Below, in pieces: positions 24,334-33,893 of a stretch of 35,609 bases of DNA. How positions within the stretch are numbered: position 1 is the first letter of the stretch; each line of letters opens with the position of its first letter. The notes under the pieces are model-generated. The model did no database searches, had not been told where the DNA came from, and saw only the letters and a program-made list of their open reading frames with translations. The position numbers and the translations under genes are program-made. The stretch comes from Tepidimonas sp. (GTDB lineage Bacteria > Pseudomonadota > Gammaproteobacteria > Burkholderiales > Burkholderiaceae_C): contig JANWZF010000299.1 in assembly GCA_025054905.1 (NCBI GenBank), positions 1 to 35,609 of the forward strand, given 5' to 3'.

Positions 24334-25800
24334 TCAGCGTGGCAGCGTCGAAGCCCCCATCAAGAATTCGTCCACCGCGCGCGCGGCCTGACGCCCTTCG
24401 CGGATCGCCCACACCACCAGCGACTGTCCGCGGCGCATGTCCCCCGCGGCAAACACCTTCGGCACGTTGGTGGCGTAGCAACCTGCGCCGTCGGTGCTGG
24501 CGCGGGCGTTGCCGCGCGCGTCGCGCTCGACGCCGAAAGCCTCCAGGATCGTGCCGATCGGCGACACAAAGCCCATCGCCAGCAGCACCAGGTCGGCTTG
24601 GTACTCCTTCTCGGTGCCCGGGATCTCGACCAGCTTGCCATCCTTCATCTCGACGTGGACGGTGCGCACGGCCGTGACCTTGCCGTTCTTGCCGACAAAT
24701 TCCTTGGTGGCGATGGCAAATTCGCGCTGGCAGCCTTCCTCGTGGCTGGAGCTGGTGCGCAGCTTCAGCGGCCAATACGGCCACGTCAGCGGTTTGTTCT
24801 CCCGCTCAGGCGGCTGCGGCATCAGCTCGAACTGCGTCACGCTGGCCGCCCCGTGCCGGTTGCTGGTGCCCACGCAGTCGCTGCCGGTATCCCCGCCACC
24901 GATGACGATGACGTGCTTGCCATCGGCGCGGATCTGCTTTTTGAGCTTGTCGCCCGCATTGACCTTGTTTTGCTGCGGCAAAAACTCCATCGCGAAGTGG
25001 ATGCCATCGAGCTGGCGCCCCGGCACCGGCAGGTCGCGTGGCTGTTCGGCCCCGCCGCACAACAACACGGCATCGAACTCGGCCAGCAGCTGCTGCGGCT
25101 CGAGAGTCTCGCGCGCGTCGTTGGTGACCTTGCAGCCCTCGGGCAAGCGCCCCACCAGCACGCGCGTGCGGAAGGTCACCCCCTCAGCCTGCATCTGCTC
25201 GATGCGGCGGTCGATCAGCCACTTCTCCAGCTTGAAGTCCGGGATGCCATAGCGCAGCAAGCCACCGATGCGGTCGTTTTTTTCAAACACCGTGACGTCG
25301 TGGCCGGCACGGGCCAGCTGCTGCGCCGCCGCCAGGCCCGAAGGGCCCGACCCCACGATGGCCACACGCTTGCCGGTCTTGACCTTGGGCGGCTGTGGCG
25401 CCACCCAGCCTTCGTTCCAGGCACGGTCGGCGATGGCGTGCTCGATCGACTTGATACCCACCGGATCGTTGTTGATGTTGAGCACACAGGCCGCCTCGCA
25501 CGGCGCCGGACAGATGCGCCCGGTGAACTCCGGAAAGTTGTTGGTGCTGTGCAGCACCTGGATCGCGTGGCGCCAGTCACCGCGGTAGACCAGGTCGTTG
25601 AAGTCCGGGATGATGTTGTTGATGGGGCAGCCGTTGTTGCAAAACGGCGTGCCGCAGTCCATGCAGCGCGCGCCCTGCACCTTGGCCTGGGCCTCGTCCA
25701 GTCCGATGACAAATTCCCGGTAGTGCTTGATGCGCTCCTGGGGGGGCTGATAGCCCTCCTCGATGCGCTCAAATTCCAGAAAGCCGGTGATCTTGCCCAT
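24334..25800 (-). CDS. gltD: Glutamate synthase small subunit
   Basis: [109 protein letters not shown]. Confidence 0.97.
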
Positions 25801-25833: not shown

Positions 25834-30588
<4,755 letters not shown>

Positions 30589-30627: not shown

Positions 30628-30656
30628 AGCATAGCCGAACCGATGCCGCGTCGCAA
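30628..30656 (-). promoter_or_regulatory. Putative sigma70 promoter P2 for gltBD (TTGCGA-17-TATGCT)
   Basis: Minus strand TTGCGA CGCGGCATCGGTTCGGC TATGCT, just upstream of the gltB start. Confidence 0.45.
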
Positions 30657-30660
30657 GCGT

Positions 30661-30688
30661 ATTATATGGGGTCAGAGTACAGTATCAA
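30661..30688 (-). promoter_or_regulatory. Putative strong sigma70 promoter P1 facing gltBD (TTGATA-16-TATAAT)
   Basis: Minus strand TTGATA CTGTACTCTGACCCCA TATAAT; -35 5/6, -10 6/6. The CTCTGACCCCA repeat forms part of the spacer. Confidence 0.6.
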
Positions 30689-30727
30689 AATCGATCGACT
30701 AAACCGACCTCTAAATTGGGGACAGAG
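30667..30727. repeat. Two direct copies of an 11-bp motif TGGGG[T/A]CAGAG, 50 bp apart, at the 3' end of the RAYT-like gene
   Basis: tggggtcagag at 30667-30677 and tggggacagag at 30717-30727 (10/11 identical), with AT-rich DNA between them. Confidence 0.8.
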
Positions 30728-31409
30728 CTGAACGTCGAGGTCGCCCCGGTCGCCCCGGGACCACCCGGCGCCCGGTCGCCTCTTGCACCGCCTGCAAAAA
30801 AGCCGCATCCCCGAGCGGCCAGCCGTGCAGCGCCGCATCCTGCAGGCGCTGCACCTGCCCCGCCGGCAGCCCCTCGGCAACGCGGCGCCGCCAGGCCAGC
30901 TCACGCGCAAACGGCGTGTCGGCCAGCGCCCACCAGGCCGCCGGAGGCTGCAGGCCGCGCTGCGGCTGCAGACCGGCGTGGTGGGCGTAGCTGCTCCAGC
31001 GATGCGCCTCGGCGCTGGCGGCCACGCCACGCTGCACCGGCAGGGTCTCGACGAACAGCAACCCCGGCAACACCCAGTCTGGCGCCAGCACGGTGGCCCG
31101 GTAGCGGCCTTCCCACAAGGTGCCGCAGCGCGCGTGGCGGGCGTTGAACCCGCGCACATAACGCCTCCCAAGCCCCTGCATCAGCCGCGGCAGGCCCTCG
31201 GCCTGCGCCGGGGTCAGCAACAGCCACACTTCCGCGGGCAGCCAGGCCCAACCATGCACCGCCACCTGCTCGCGGGGTGCCAGCTCCAGCAGCGCTGCCA
31301 GCAGCGCCGCGCGGTCGACGTCGTCGGCGAACACCGCTTGCCCGTTGTGCCCGCGCCAGACCACCAGATGCGCGTGGCCAGGCACGCTCAGGCGGGGCAG
31401 ACGCGCCAT
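30711..31409 (-). CDS. RAYT-like protein (Y1/TnpA_REP superfamily transposase homolog) with a degenerate HUH motif
   Basis: MARLPRLSVPGHAHLVVWRGHNGQAVF..., LMQGLGRRYVRGFNARHARCGTLWEGRYRATVL, HRWSSYAHHAG match the TnpA_REP layout. The HUH position reads LPAEVWLLLTP. Start ATG at 31409; stop TAG lies next to the terminal repeat. Confidence 0.85.
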   Translation of the reverse strand: MARLPRLSVPGHAHLVVWRGHNGQAVFADDVDRAALLAALLELAPREQVAVHGWAWLPAEVWLLLTPAQAEGLPRLMQGLGRRYVRGFNARHARCGTLWEGRYRATVLAPDWVLPGLLFVETLPVQRGVAASAEAHRWSSYAHHAGLQPQRGLQPPAAWWALADTPFARELAWRRRVAEGLPAGQVQRLQDAALHGWPLGDAAFLQAVQEATGRRVVPGRPGRPRRSALSPI

Positions 31410-31423
31410 CGTTTGACCCCCAC

Positions 31424-32647
31424 TCAGACACGCGCGGGCGCGGCCAGCGCCGCCCGCCAGCGCGCCTGCAATGCCACCGCCAGCGCGGCCCCCGCCGCGC
31501 AGCACAGCACGTTGAACACCCACGACCAGTGCCAGCCGCCCACCTGCGAGGCGAGCCAGGCCACCAACGGCGGCCCGCTGAACTGCCCCAGCGACGACAG
31601 CTGCTGCACCCAGCCCACCGTCGTCGATACCGTGGCCGGGCTGGGCGCCAGCCGCACCGCCAGCGCAAACAGCGTACCTGGCACCAGCCCGCCCAACGCC
31701 GAAAAACCCAGCGCCGCGGCATAGCCGGCCCAGCCGGGCAGGGTAAACGTCCCCACCGCCCCCAGCGCCATCGCCCCGTAACCCAGCCACAGCAAACGCC
31801 GCACGGACCAGCCGCGCGCCAGCAGACGCCCGGCCCCAACATTGCCGCTGAGATTGATGCCAGCGGCCAAGGCGCTGGCCCATCCCACCGCGGTGGCCGA
31901 CCATCCCGCTTCGGTGTAGAGCGTTGGCAAAAAGCCCACCACCGCCAGCCACTGGCCGGAATAGGCGCCAAACGCCAGCGCCACCCACCAGGGCCCCGGC
32001 GAAGCCAGTGTCAGGCGCAACCCGCCGCAGGCCGCCCGCAGCGCATCGGCCAGCCGTGCTGCATCCCCCTCGCCCCGCCCCTGATCGGCGGGCACGCTGC
32101 GCGCCAGCAGCGCCGCGCTGGCCAGGGCCAGCAGCGCCAGCCCCCACCACGCCGCACGCCAGCCCACCGCGGCGTACAGCGGGGGGCTCAGCGCCAGCCC
32201 CAGCGCGGCGCCGATCGGCATGTACGCCCCCCACCAGCCCAGCGCGCGCGCCTGCGCGCGCACCTCGGCCACGCGGCGACGGATCAACCCCGGCGCGGGC
32301 AGCACCGTCGTCAAAAAGCCGAGGCCCTCCAGACCGCGCGTCCACAACAGGGTCTGGGGTCCCTGGGCCAGGGCACCCAGCGCGCTGCCAGCGGCCAGCA
32401 GCAACAGACCCACCAGCATCACGCGCCGCGGCCCCAGCCGGTCGGCCAGCTGCCCCAGCAGCGCACCCAAGGTCATGCCAGCCAGTTGGATCATCGACAG
32501 CAAAAAGCCACCCTGCACCAGGGTGACGCCAAGCTCTCGCGCCAGCCAGGGCAGCGCCGGCGGCAGCTTGCCCACGTGCATCGCACTGGCCACCCCCACC
32601 GCCACGATCGGCAGCGCCGGCCCGGGAATGCCCAGCAGCGTGCGCAT
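31424..32647 (-). CDS. MFS transporter (CynX/NimT-like)
   Basis: About 12 hydrophobic segments; LGQLADRLGPRRVMLVGLLLL is the MFS motif A region. ATG at 32647. Confidence 0.85.
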   Translation of the reverse strand: MRTLLGIPGPALPIVAVGVASAMHVGKLPPALPWLARELGVTLVQGGFLLSMIQLAGMTLGALLGQLADRLGPRRVMLVGLLLLAAGSALGALAQGPQTLLWTRGLEGLGFLTTVLPAPGLIRRRVAEVRAQARALGWWGAYMPIGAALGLALSPPLYAAVGWRAAWWGLALLALASAALLARSVPADQGRGEGDAARLADALRAACGGLRLTLASPGPWWVALAFGAYSGQWLAVVGFLPTLYTEAGWSATAVGWASALAAGINLSGNVGAGRLLARGWSVRRLLWLGYGAMALGAVGTFTLPGWAGYAAALGFSALGGLVPGTLFALAVRLAPSPATVSTTVGWVQQLSSLGQFSGPPLVAWLASQVGGWHWSWVFNVLCCAAGAALAVALQARWRAALAAPARV

Positions 32648-32651
32648 GGAT

Positions 32652-33893
32652 TTACCCAAACAGCCGCTGGCCGGTCAGCCGCTCGTGCTCGCGGATCGCG
32701 TAGCGGTCGGTCATGCCAGCGATGTAGTCGGCCACCTGCCGCCGCAGCGACAACCCGGCACGCCGGCACGGGGCGGGCAGCCGCGCCGGGTCGGCACAGT
32801 AGGCACGGTAAAGATCGGCCACCACCTGGCGAGCGCGCGCCGTGGTGTCCATCACCTGCGGGTGGCGGTACAGGTTGACGAGCAAAAAGCGCTTGAGCTG
32901 GCTGGAGGCTTCGCGCATCGCCGGGGAAAACCCCAGCAACGGCGGGTGCGCGCGCACCTCCTGCAGCGTGCCCACACCGGCCTGCTGCAGCGCCCGGCGC
33001 GTGGCGTCGATCACGTCGTAGACCTGCGCGCTGAGCATGCGCCGGATCGATTCGTACAGCAGCCGCCGCCCCCGCAGGTGGGGGTGCTCGGCCAGCGCCG
33101 CGCGGCGAAAGTGGTCGAACAGCTCCACCTGCTCCAGCTGCTCCAGCGTCAGCAGGCCGCTGCGCACCCCATCGTCGATGTCGTGCGCGTTGTAGGCAAT
33201 CTCGTCGGCGACGTTGGCCAGCTGCGCCTCCAGCGACGGCGACTCTCCGCGCAGAAAACGCGCCCCGACGCCGTCGGGCTCGCGTTGCTCCAGCCAGGCG
33301 GCGTTGGCGCGTGAGCAGTGCTTGAGAATCCCCTCGCGCGTCTCCAAACAGAGGTTGAGCCCATCGAACGCCGGATAGCGCTCCTCCAGCTCATCCACCA
33401 CGCGCAAGCTCTGCAGGTTGTGCTCGAAGCCCCCGTGCGGCTCGTTCGGCCCGCGCGGCTCGGCCGCCCACGGGCCATCGTCCTCGTGCAGGCAGGCGTT
33501 GAGGGCATCCTGACCGGCATGGCCGAAGGGGGTGTGGCCCAGATCGTGCGCCAGCGCGATGGCTTCCACCAGATCCTCGTGCAGGCCCAGCGCACGCGCG
33601 ATGCTGCGCCCGAGCTGGGCCACCTCCAGCGAGTGCGTCAGGCGGGTGCGAAACAGATCGCCCTCGTGGTTGAGAAACACCTGGGTCTTGTACACCAGAC
33701 GCCGAAACGCCGTGGAATGGATGACGCGGTCGCGGTCGCGCTGAAAGGCGTTGCGCGTCGGCGCCTCAGGTTCGGGGTGGCGACGGCCACGGCTGCGTGC
33801 GGGGTCACAAGCCCACGGCGCCAGCGTGCCCGCCTGCCAAGTCGGCACGGTTGCCCCGGTGAGGCCCCACCGCGACGGTCGAACTTCGGTCAT
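32652..33893 (-). CDS. dgt: dGTP triphosphohydrolase-like HD-domain protein
   Basis: RNAFQRDRDRVIHSTAFRRLVYKTQVFLNHEGDLFRTRLTHSLEVAQLGRSIARALGL...ALAHDLGHTPFGHAGQDAL. Confidence 0.93.
   Translation of the reverse strand: MTEVRPSRWGLTGATVPTWQAGTLAPWACDPARSRGRRHPEPEAPTRNAFQRDRDRVIHSTAFRRLVYKTQVFLNHEGDLFRTRLTHSLEVAQLGRSIARALGLHEDLVEAIALAHDLGHTPFGHAGQDALNACLHEDDGPWAAEPRGPNEPHGGFEHNLQSLRVVDELEERYPAFDGLNLCLETREGILKHCSRANAAWLEQREPDGVGARFLRGESPSLEAQLANVADEIAYNAHDIDDGVRSGLLTLEQLEQVELFDHFRRAALAEHPHLRGRRLLYESIRRMLSAQVYDVIDATRRALQQAGVGTLQEVRAHPPLLGFSPAMREASSQLKRFLLVNLYRHPQVMDTTARARQVVADLYRAYCADPARLPAPCRRAGLSLRRQVADYIAGMTDRYAIREHERLTGQRLFG

Follow-up and report, generated by a model that had tools for sequence, protein, structure and literature searches.

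RAYTs are known as domesticated transposases, and we know of no established benefit to their hosts. Published surveys describe the HUH motif and the nucleophilic tyrosine as conserved in the members examined (PMC6006769, PMC3733652, PMC2817692). The class signature is Y---NP, whose Asn is a metal ligand (PMC6006769), and the RAYT nucleophile adjoins an NP(L/V)(R/K)xG motif (PMC2817692). Exchange of this tyrosine for phenylalanine, as in Y115F and Y130F, has been used experimentally to kill these enzymes (PMC8266576). TldR proteins are nuclease-dead transcription factors derived from TnpB (PMC13418256). Our literature search turned up no description of RAYTs that are linked to gltB or lack HUH; here we analyze such a protein, encoded in a 35,609-nucleotide stretch of Tepidimonas sp. 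DNA (the window).

Fold and active site of the window protein

The minus strand of the window contains an uninterrupted ORF of 232 codons (31409..30711), as established by translation, with the following features:

30711..31409, minus strand: HUH-dead RAYT-like gene, 232 aa (intact ORF, NCBIfam score, AlphaFold2 and Foldseek)
31224..31232, minus strand: E-V-W at the HUH position, codons 60–62 (translation and homolog alignment)
31053..31055, minus strand: Phe at the nucleophile position, codon 119 (alignment to ISDra2 Tyr132)
31041..31043, minus strand: Leu at the metal-ligand Asn position of Y---NP, codon 123 (ortholog comparison; motif from PMC6006769)
30738..30746, minus strand: Gly-Arg-Pro, codons 222–224, an AT-hook-like C-terminal tail (ortholog conservation)

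The protein matches the NCBIfam REP_Tyr_transpos profile weakly, at 22.4 bits and below the curated cut-off of 80, Pfam returned zero matches, Y1_Tnp included, and a sequence search of the PDB gave chance-level matches only. Because scores of this kind fall under the family thresholds, automatic annotation is likely to miss dead members. Using a 22-row ortholog alignment as input, AlphaFold2 produced a model with a mean pLDDT of 92 and a pTM of 0.87, for which the top Foldseek match in the PDB is the complex of the E. coli RAYT with a REP hairpin (4er8, E 9.8e-07), followed by ISDra2 TnpA and IS608 TnpA and including the ISDra2 Y132F mutant (2xo6). As judged by these matches, the predicted structure has the RAYT-type Y1 (HUH-fold) architecture. 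The model has three C-terminal helices: 166–179, 183–195 and 202–212. Assignment of the C terminus as a helix-turn-helix or AT-hook scores under curated thresholds: nothing among the Pfam HTH profiles matched the region above cut-off, and a Pfam AT_hook match occurs in one ortholog (L007), at sub-threshold level only. The Gly-Arg-Pro tail itself is kept by 97% of the active orthologs and 98% of the dead ones.

A sequence-only reading of this DNA had noted the intact 232-aa ORF and E-V-W in place of H-u-H, and translation, homolog alignment and Tepidimonas isolates bear out both. The column is H-u-H in intact relatives, with His at position 60 in 41 and at position 62 in 63 of 81 aligned sequences, and since Tepidimonas isolate genomes show QVW or EVW in the same column, E-V-W is not a product of chance or sequencing error. 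That reading had named a different intact H-x-H at the HUH position as the outcome that would count against it; the alignment contains none, and no alternative HxH lies close to this position in the dead sequences.

The same reading had taken Y84 (LGRRYV) for the retained nucleophile, which proved incorrect. Y84 is a conserved residue in a different helix, and it is ruled out by the NPVRxG motif and by the alignment of ISDra2 TnpA with an HUH-intact relative (L078), in which catalytic Tyr132 (QKYIE) matches position 119. This position is Tyr in 109 of 109 HHYN orthologs and Phe in the window protein. The surrounding segment reads RYIELNPVR in relatives and LFVETLPVQR here, with F119---L123-P124 in place of Y---NP. 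Since F119 and L123 add to E60 and W62, all four catalytic positions are gone (EWFL versus HHYN). The earlier proposal of a RAYT derivative incapable of metal-dependent cleavage is supported, and the metal Asn and the Tyr are lost besides HUH.

Parallel catalytic loss at the gltB locus

Downstream of the RAYT-like gene lie the two glutamate synthase genes:

25834..30588, minus strand: gltB, glutamate synthase large subunit, the conserved downstream neighbour (ORF list and family synteny)
24334..25800, minus strand: gltD (ORF list, annotated from sequence)

The first 80 homologs (loci L002–L081) are complete in length, and almost every one of them immediately precedes gltB on the same strand; they were recruited by query peptides, chiefly WSSYAHHA, so the invariance of that peptide among them is no evidence. 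Our family set is an even, by-species sample of the GTDB family of the window, comprising 301 species genomes, and the RAYT-like gene is present in 284 of these, mostly in single copy. The gltB start lies directly downstream, at a median gap of 180 nt, in 228 of the 237 family loci fetched, and four of the nine others stop at or near a contig edge. Seven of the 17 genomes without a match to the RAYT-like gene are also without a gltB match. Two of these seven, G644 and G658, are each a single contig listed as 100% complete, and joint loss of the two genes may explain the missing matches.

In the window an MFS transporter gene (31424–32659, minus strand) separates dgt from the RAYT-like gene. 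Such a gene was detected between the two at just 17 of the 237 family loci; at a number of others, L006, L153 and L163 among them, dgt comes immediately before the RAYT-like gene. Extra, distant RAYT paralogs away from gltB occur in some family genomes, for example G479 and G611 (E 1e-27 to 1e-44).

Of the 237 family orthologs, 109 have an intact HHYN and 128 a broken one, so that 54% have lost at least one catalytic residue. HUH is lost in 104 of the 237, as anticipated by the suggestion of an HUH-less RAYT lineage in Burkholderiales, and HUH and Tyr are both lost in 84; the replacements at lost positions are of dozens of different kinds, the quartet reading QWFL in Tepidimonas alkaliphilus and QHYV in Janthinobacterium lividum, for example. 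Mapping on an independent, 296-locus gltB tree puts the number of HUH losses at 43 under a loss-only model, 35 under unordered parsimony and at least 32 when weak nodes are collapsed. HUH loss coincides with Tyr loss (independent pairs 11.3 versus 0.0, p about 0.001) and likewise with loss of the Asn (14.3 versus 0.0, p about 0.0001).

Codon models gave omega values of 0.05–0.16 in dead clades, with one very shallow pair at 0.33 and Tepidimonas at 0.11–0.13, and of 0.02–0.14 in active clades. By pairwise codon likelihood, 2dlnL against omega = 1 is 42–156 in sixteen dead pairs, shallow ones (dS 0.3–0.8) included; synonymous sites are near saturation in some of the dN/dS pairs, and the shallow pairs agree. 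The dead clades are thus under strong purifying selection, in line with the earlier suggestion that the gene is kept, and the comparison of orthologs, with omega well below 1, gives no sign of general decay. The RAYT-like gene is single-copy, syntenic and under purifying selection, as in domesticated RAYTs. The sole clear disrupted copy among the 237 loci (L246, genome G542) is split across two overlapping frames and looks frameshifted.

The columns lost in dead orthologs are H15, N21, R23, M57, N59, H60, H62, C116, Y119, L122 and N123. Kept at about 95–100% are M-A-R-x-x-R, H14, H52, P67, Q78, R82, W99, G101, R102, S140, G146, W160, T165-P166-F167, R169 and the terminal G-R-P, with R3, R6, Q78, R82, W99, R102, W160, T165, R169 and G222-R223-P224 at 98–100%. 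In this pattern the active site goes, and the basic tails and part of the DNA-facing framework stay.

Terminal repeats and the gltB promoter

Active loci carry TAATTGGGGTCAGATTCCAATTA upstream of the gene and an inverted copy, TAATTGGAATCTGACCCCAATTA, downstream, flanking repeats of the TIRYT type (PMC3733652, PMC6006769). In the window the right boxes are intact, and on the left only GGGGTCAAA is present:

31412..31420, minus strand: GGGGTCAAA, possible left terminal repeat remnant, one mismatch to GGGGTCAGA
30718..30726, minus strand: box 1, TCTGTCCCC, which overlaps the gene's 3' end and lies 50 nt upstream of box 2 (conserved 48–50 nt offset)
30668..30676, minus strand: box 2, TCTGACCCC, right terminal repeat remnant, 11 nt upstream of the gltB -35 (family comparison)
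30651..30656, minus strand: gltB -35-like TTGCGA at the family-conserved position (gap 11, spacer 17 as in the family)
30628..30633, minus strand: gltB -10-like TATGCT (family promoter comparison)

The upstream (left) repeat is present at 5 of 93 HUH-lost versus 81 of 130 HUH-intact loci, and its loss tracks that of HUH (independent pairs 8.4:1, p about 0.04) and of Tyr (7.8:0.2, p about 0.008). The downstream (right) box is present at 74 of 93 HUH-lost versus 128 of 129 HUH-intact loci and is unchanged in 15.6 of 18 independent pairs. With up to one mismatch allowed, it is found at 62 of 77 dead loci, where about 3 would be expected, and is missing from the other 15.

The position of the box relative to the promoter is also shared. 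TCTGACCCC lies 11–12 nt upstream of a -35/-10 pair with a 17-nt spacer at 92 of 107 active and 50 of 77 dead family loci, and a second box follows 48–50 nt further upstream at 90 of 107 and 46 of 77, respectively. Of 63 Oxalobacteraceae loci that have a box, 57 show a gap of 11 nt; for the HUH-lost ones among them the figure is 32 of 35. Between the two boxes there is no sequence conservation, and AT-rich sequence follows the box.

The window has, in addition, a near-perfect sigma-70-like promoter, TTGATA-16-TATAAT (11 of 12), that spans box 2 (30661–30688, minus strand) and sits 28–32 nt above the family-type gltB promoter. It was the automatic promoter pick in the window, and the family-type promoter was placed by hand and checked. 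The site is not apparent in the other Tepidimonas sequences compared and may be specific to the genome of the window.

Proposed role, alternatives and relation to known systems

The sequence-only reading of a cleavage-dead RAYT lineage under selection stands, apart from the identity of the tyrosine; it missed the gltB synteny, the massively parallel loss and the former terminal repeat at the gltB promoter. A dead gene that is under strong selection in front of gltB and beside a leftover transposon end is probably, for these reasons, a local gene regulator. With homology, fold, catalytic-residue loss, purifying selection, synteny, and box retention and spacing demonstrated, we consider it reasonably probable that the gltB-linked RAYT has been repeatedly converted into a nuclease-dead, DNA-binding regulator of gltB that acts via the former transposon end. 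Binding of the boxes and regulation of gltBD by the dead protein are suggested by the position and co-retention of gene and box.

In the course of events that we envisage, an ancestor of these Burkholderiales would have acquired a RAYT, or have had one become fixed, in the interval from dgt to gltB, and the gene would have passed vertically to its descendants. Lineages that keep HHYN presumably still process their own GGGGTCAGA repeats. Many others, including that of the window, have lost both His, the Tyr and the metal Asn and retained the putative DNA-binding parts: the MARxxR N-terminus, the helix/loop residues Q78/R82/W99/R102, the C-terminal extension and the GRP tail. The window protein is best explained as a domesticated, nuclease-dead RAYT descendant (TnpA_REP/TIRYT type, subclass 2.1). 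We propose that it would recognize TCTGACCCC-AATTTA boxes in double-stranded form. These boxes, which were once the right terminal repeat, lie at about -52 and -100 of the gltB promoter, and their occupation would set gltBD transcription. Activation would fit the position of the box upstream of the -35 in the family; in the window, binding at box 2 would repress the second strong promoter-like site around it.

The complementary hairpin arm at the box decays in dead loci, from 5.8 to 3.8 of 8 pairs (p 4e-10), and the box stays, as would be expected if the processing of ssDNA hairpins had given way to the binding of a double-stranded operator. TCTGACCCCWWWWW has one occurrence in the genome of the window (88.6% complete), at gltB, and no dispersed cognate repeats were found there beyond it. 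Of 80 genomes compared, 40 active and 40 dead, eight of the active and none of the dead ones contain at least three copies of TCTGACCCCNNTTWW outside the locus (Fisher p 0.005), a difference consistent with catalysis being needed for repeat dispersal. These data, together with the fixed position of the box relative to the gltB promoter, make it rather unlikely that the dead protein was kept as an ssDNA- or hairpin-binding factor (fork or REP-type) with an incidental location at gltB, even though the Y1 fold is conserved with its hairpin-facing helix and REPs in the form of folded ssDNA are bound by the RAYTs of E. coli and Stenotrophomonas (PMC8266576).

Four genomes (G681, G614, G652 and G512) have dispersed GGGGTCAGA/TCTGACCCC repeats, 9–25 copies by exact pattern, partly as closely spaced inverted doublets. 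These repeats resemble a REPIN family belonging to a subclass 2.1 RAYT; REP-like repeats had been reported as not found for subclass 2.1 RAYTs.

The box could also be a mere element of the gltB promoter, such as an upstream element or another factor's site, with the retained function of the protein unrelated to it. A promoter role could keep the box whatever the protein does, and the box does adjoin the -35, at a distance that is constant whether the locus is active or dead, with AT-rich sequence after it. We nevertheless regard this explanation as improbable: the boxes are paired at a conserved spacing and are the element's own terminal repeat, and six gltB loci without the gene (L341, L343, L344, L345, L348 and L349) have promoter-like sites and no paired boxes. 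In L344, dgt is followed directly by gltB, an empty site without the RAYT-like gene. Loci of this kind are no proof of a link between protein and box, since their number is small and they may have been deprived of gene and boxes jointly or never have acquired either.

Fewer dispersed repeats in dead genomes would also be expected if the dead copy were a dominant-negative suppressor that occupies repeat ends and blocks mobilization by active relatives. This is very unlikely, since most genomes, including that of the window, have no second close copy to suppress, and the gltB synteny and box spacing would be left unexplained. Ordinary decay, with a pseudogene in progress open by chance, might be read into the proportion of broken orthologs and the frameshifted L246, but is rejected by the dN/dS of the dead clades, shallow pairs included, and is scarcely credible given the near-invariant N- and C-terminal DNA-contact motifs and near-universal retention.

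Returning to the regulator that we favour, we lean slightly towards a broader view in which an ssDNA transposase has become a family-wide transcription factor for glutamate synthase, its terminal repeat an operator and its nuclease inactivated in more than 30 independent events at a single orthologous locus, making it the TnpA equivalent of the TnpB-derived TldR. The occurrence of active and dead versions at one orthologous locus in hundreds of species makes the features kept by the host separable from those needed for transposition, and the pattern points to a concrete, testable role in the control of gltBD, and thus in ammonia assimilation.

Among known systems, RAYT/TnpA_REP class 2, subclass 2.1 (TIRYT) shares with the window protein the Y1 fold, the RAYT motifs outside the active site and a C-terminal extension, as well as single-copy vertical inheritance and GGGG[AT][CG]A[CG] repeats beside the gene (PMC6006769, PMC3733652, PMC2817692). 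Unlike these RAYTs, the window protein is without HUH, Tyr and Asn, and its locus is fixed at gltB, with a degenerate left repeat and no dispersed repeats in the genome. Its best structural matches are E. coli TnpA_REP (4er8) and ISDra2 TnpA Y132F (2xo6). Its natural Y119F change is equivalent to the mutations made in the laboratory at the catalytic Tyr (Y132F, Y115F and Y130F), whereas the natural E. coli and ISDra2 proteins are active nucleases, and in the window protein the Asn and both His are missing as well. The nearest parallel to the gltB-linked dead RAYT is TldR: in both, an IS200/IS605-family nuclease has been inactivated repeatedly and independently, retained and tied to a non-transposon gene, with a proposed switch to transcriptional control, regulation being a prediction in the present case. 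Unlike TldR, the window protein is related to TnpA/Y1 and not to TnpB, has no RuvC and no guide RNA, and its proposed target is the former terminal repeat itself. If the proposal is true, the gltB-linked RAYT would provide a TnpA parallel to the nuclease-dead TnpB regulators.
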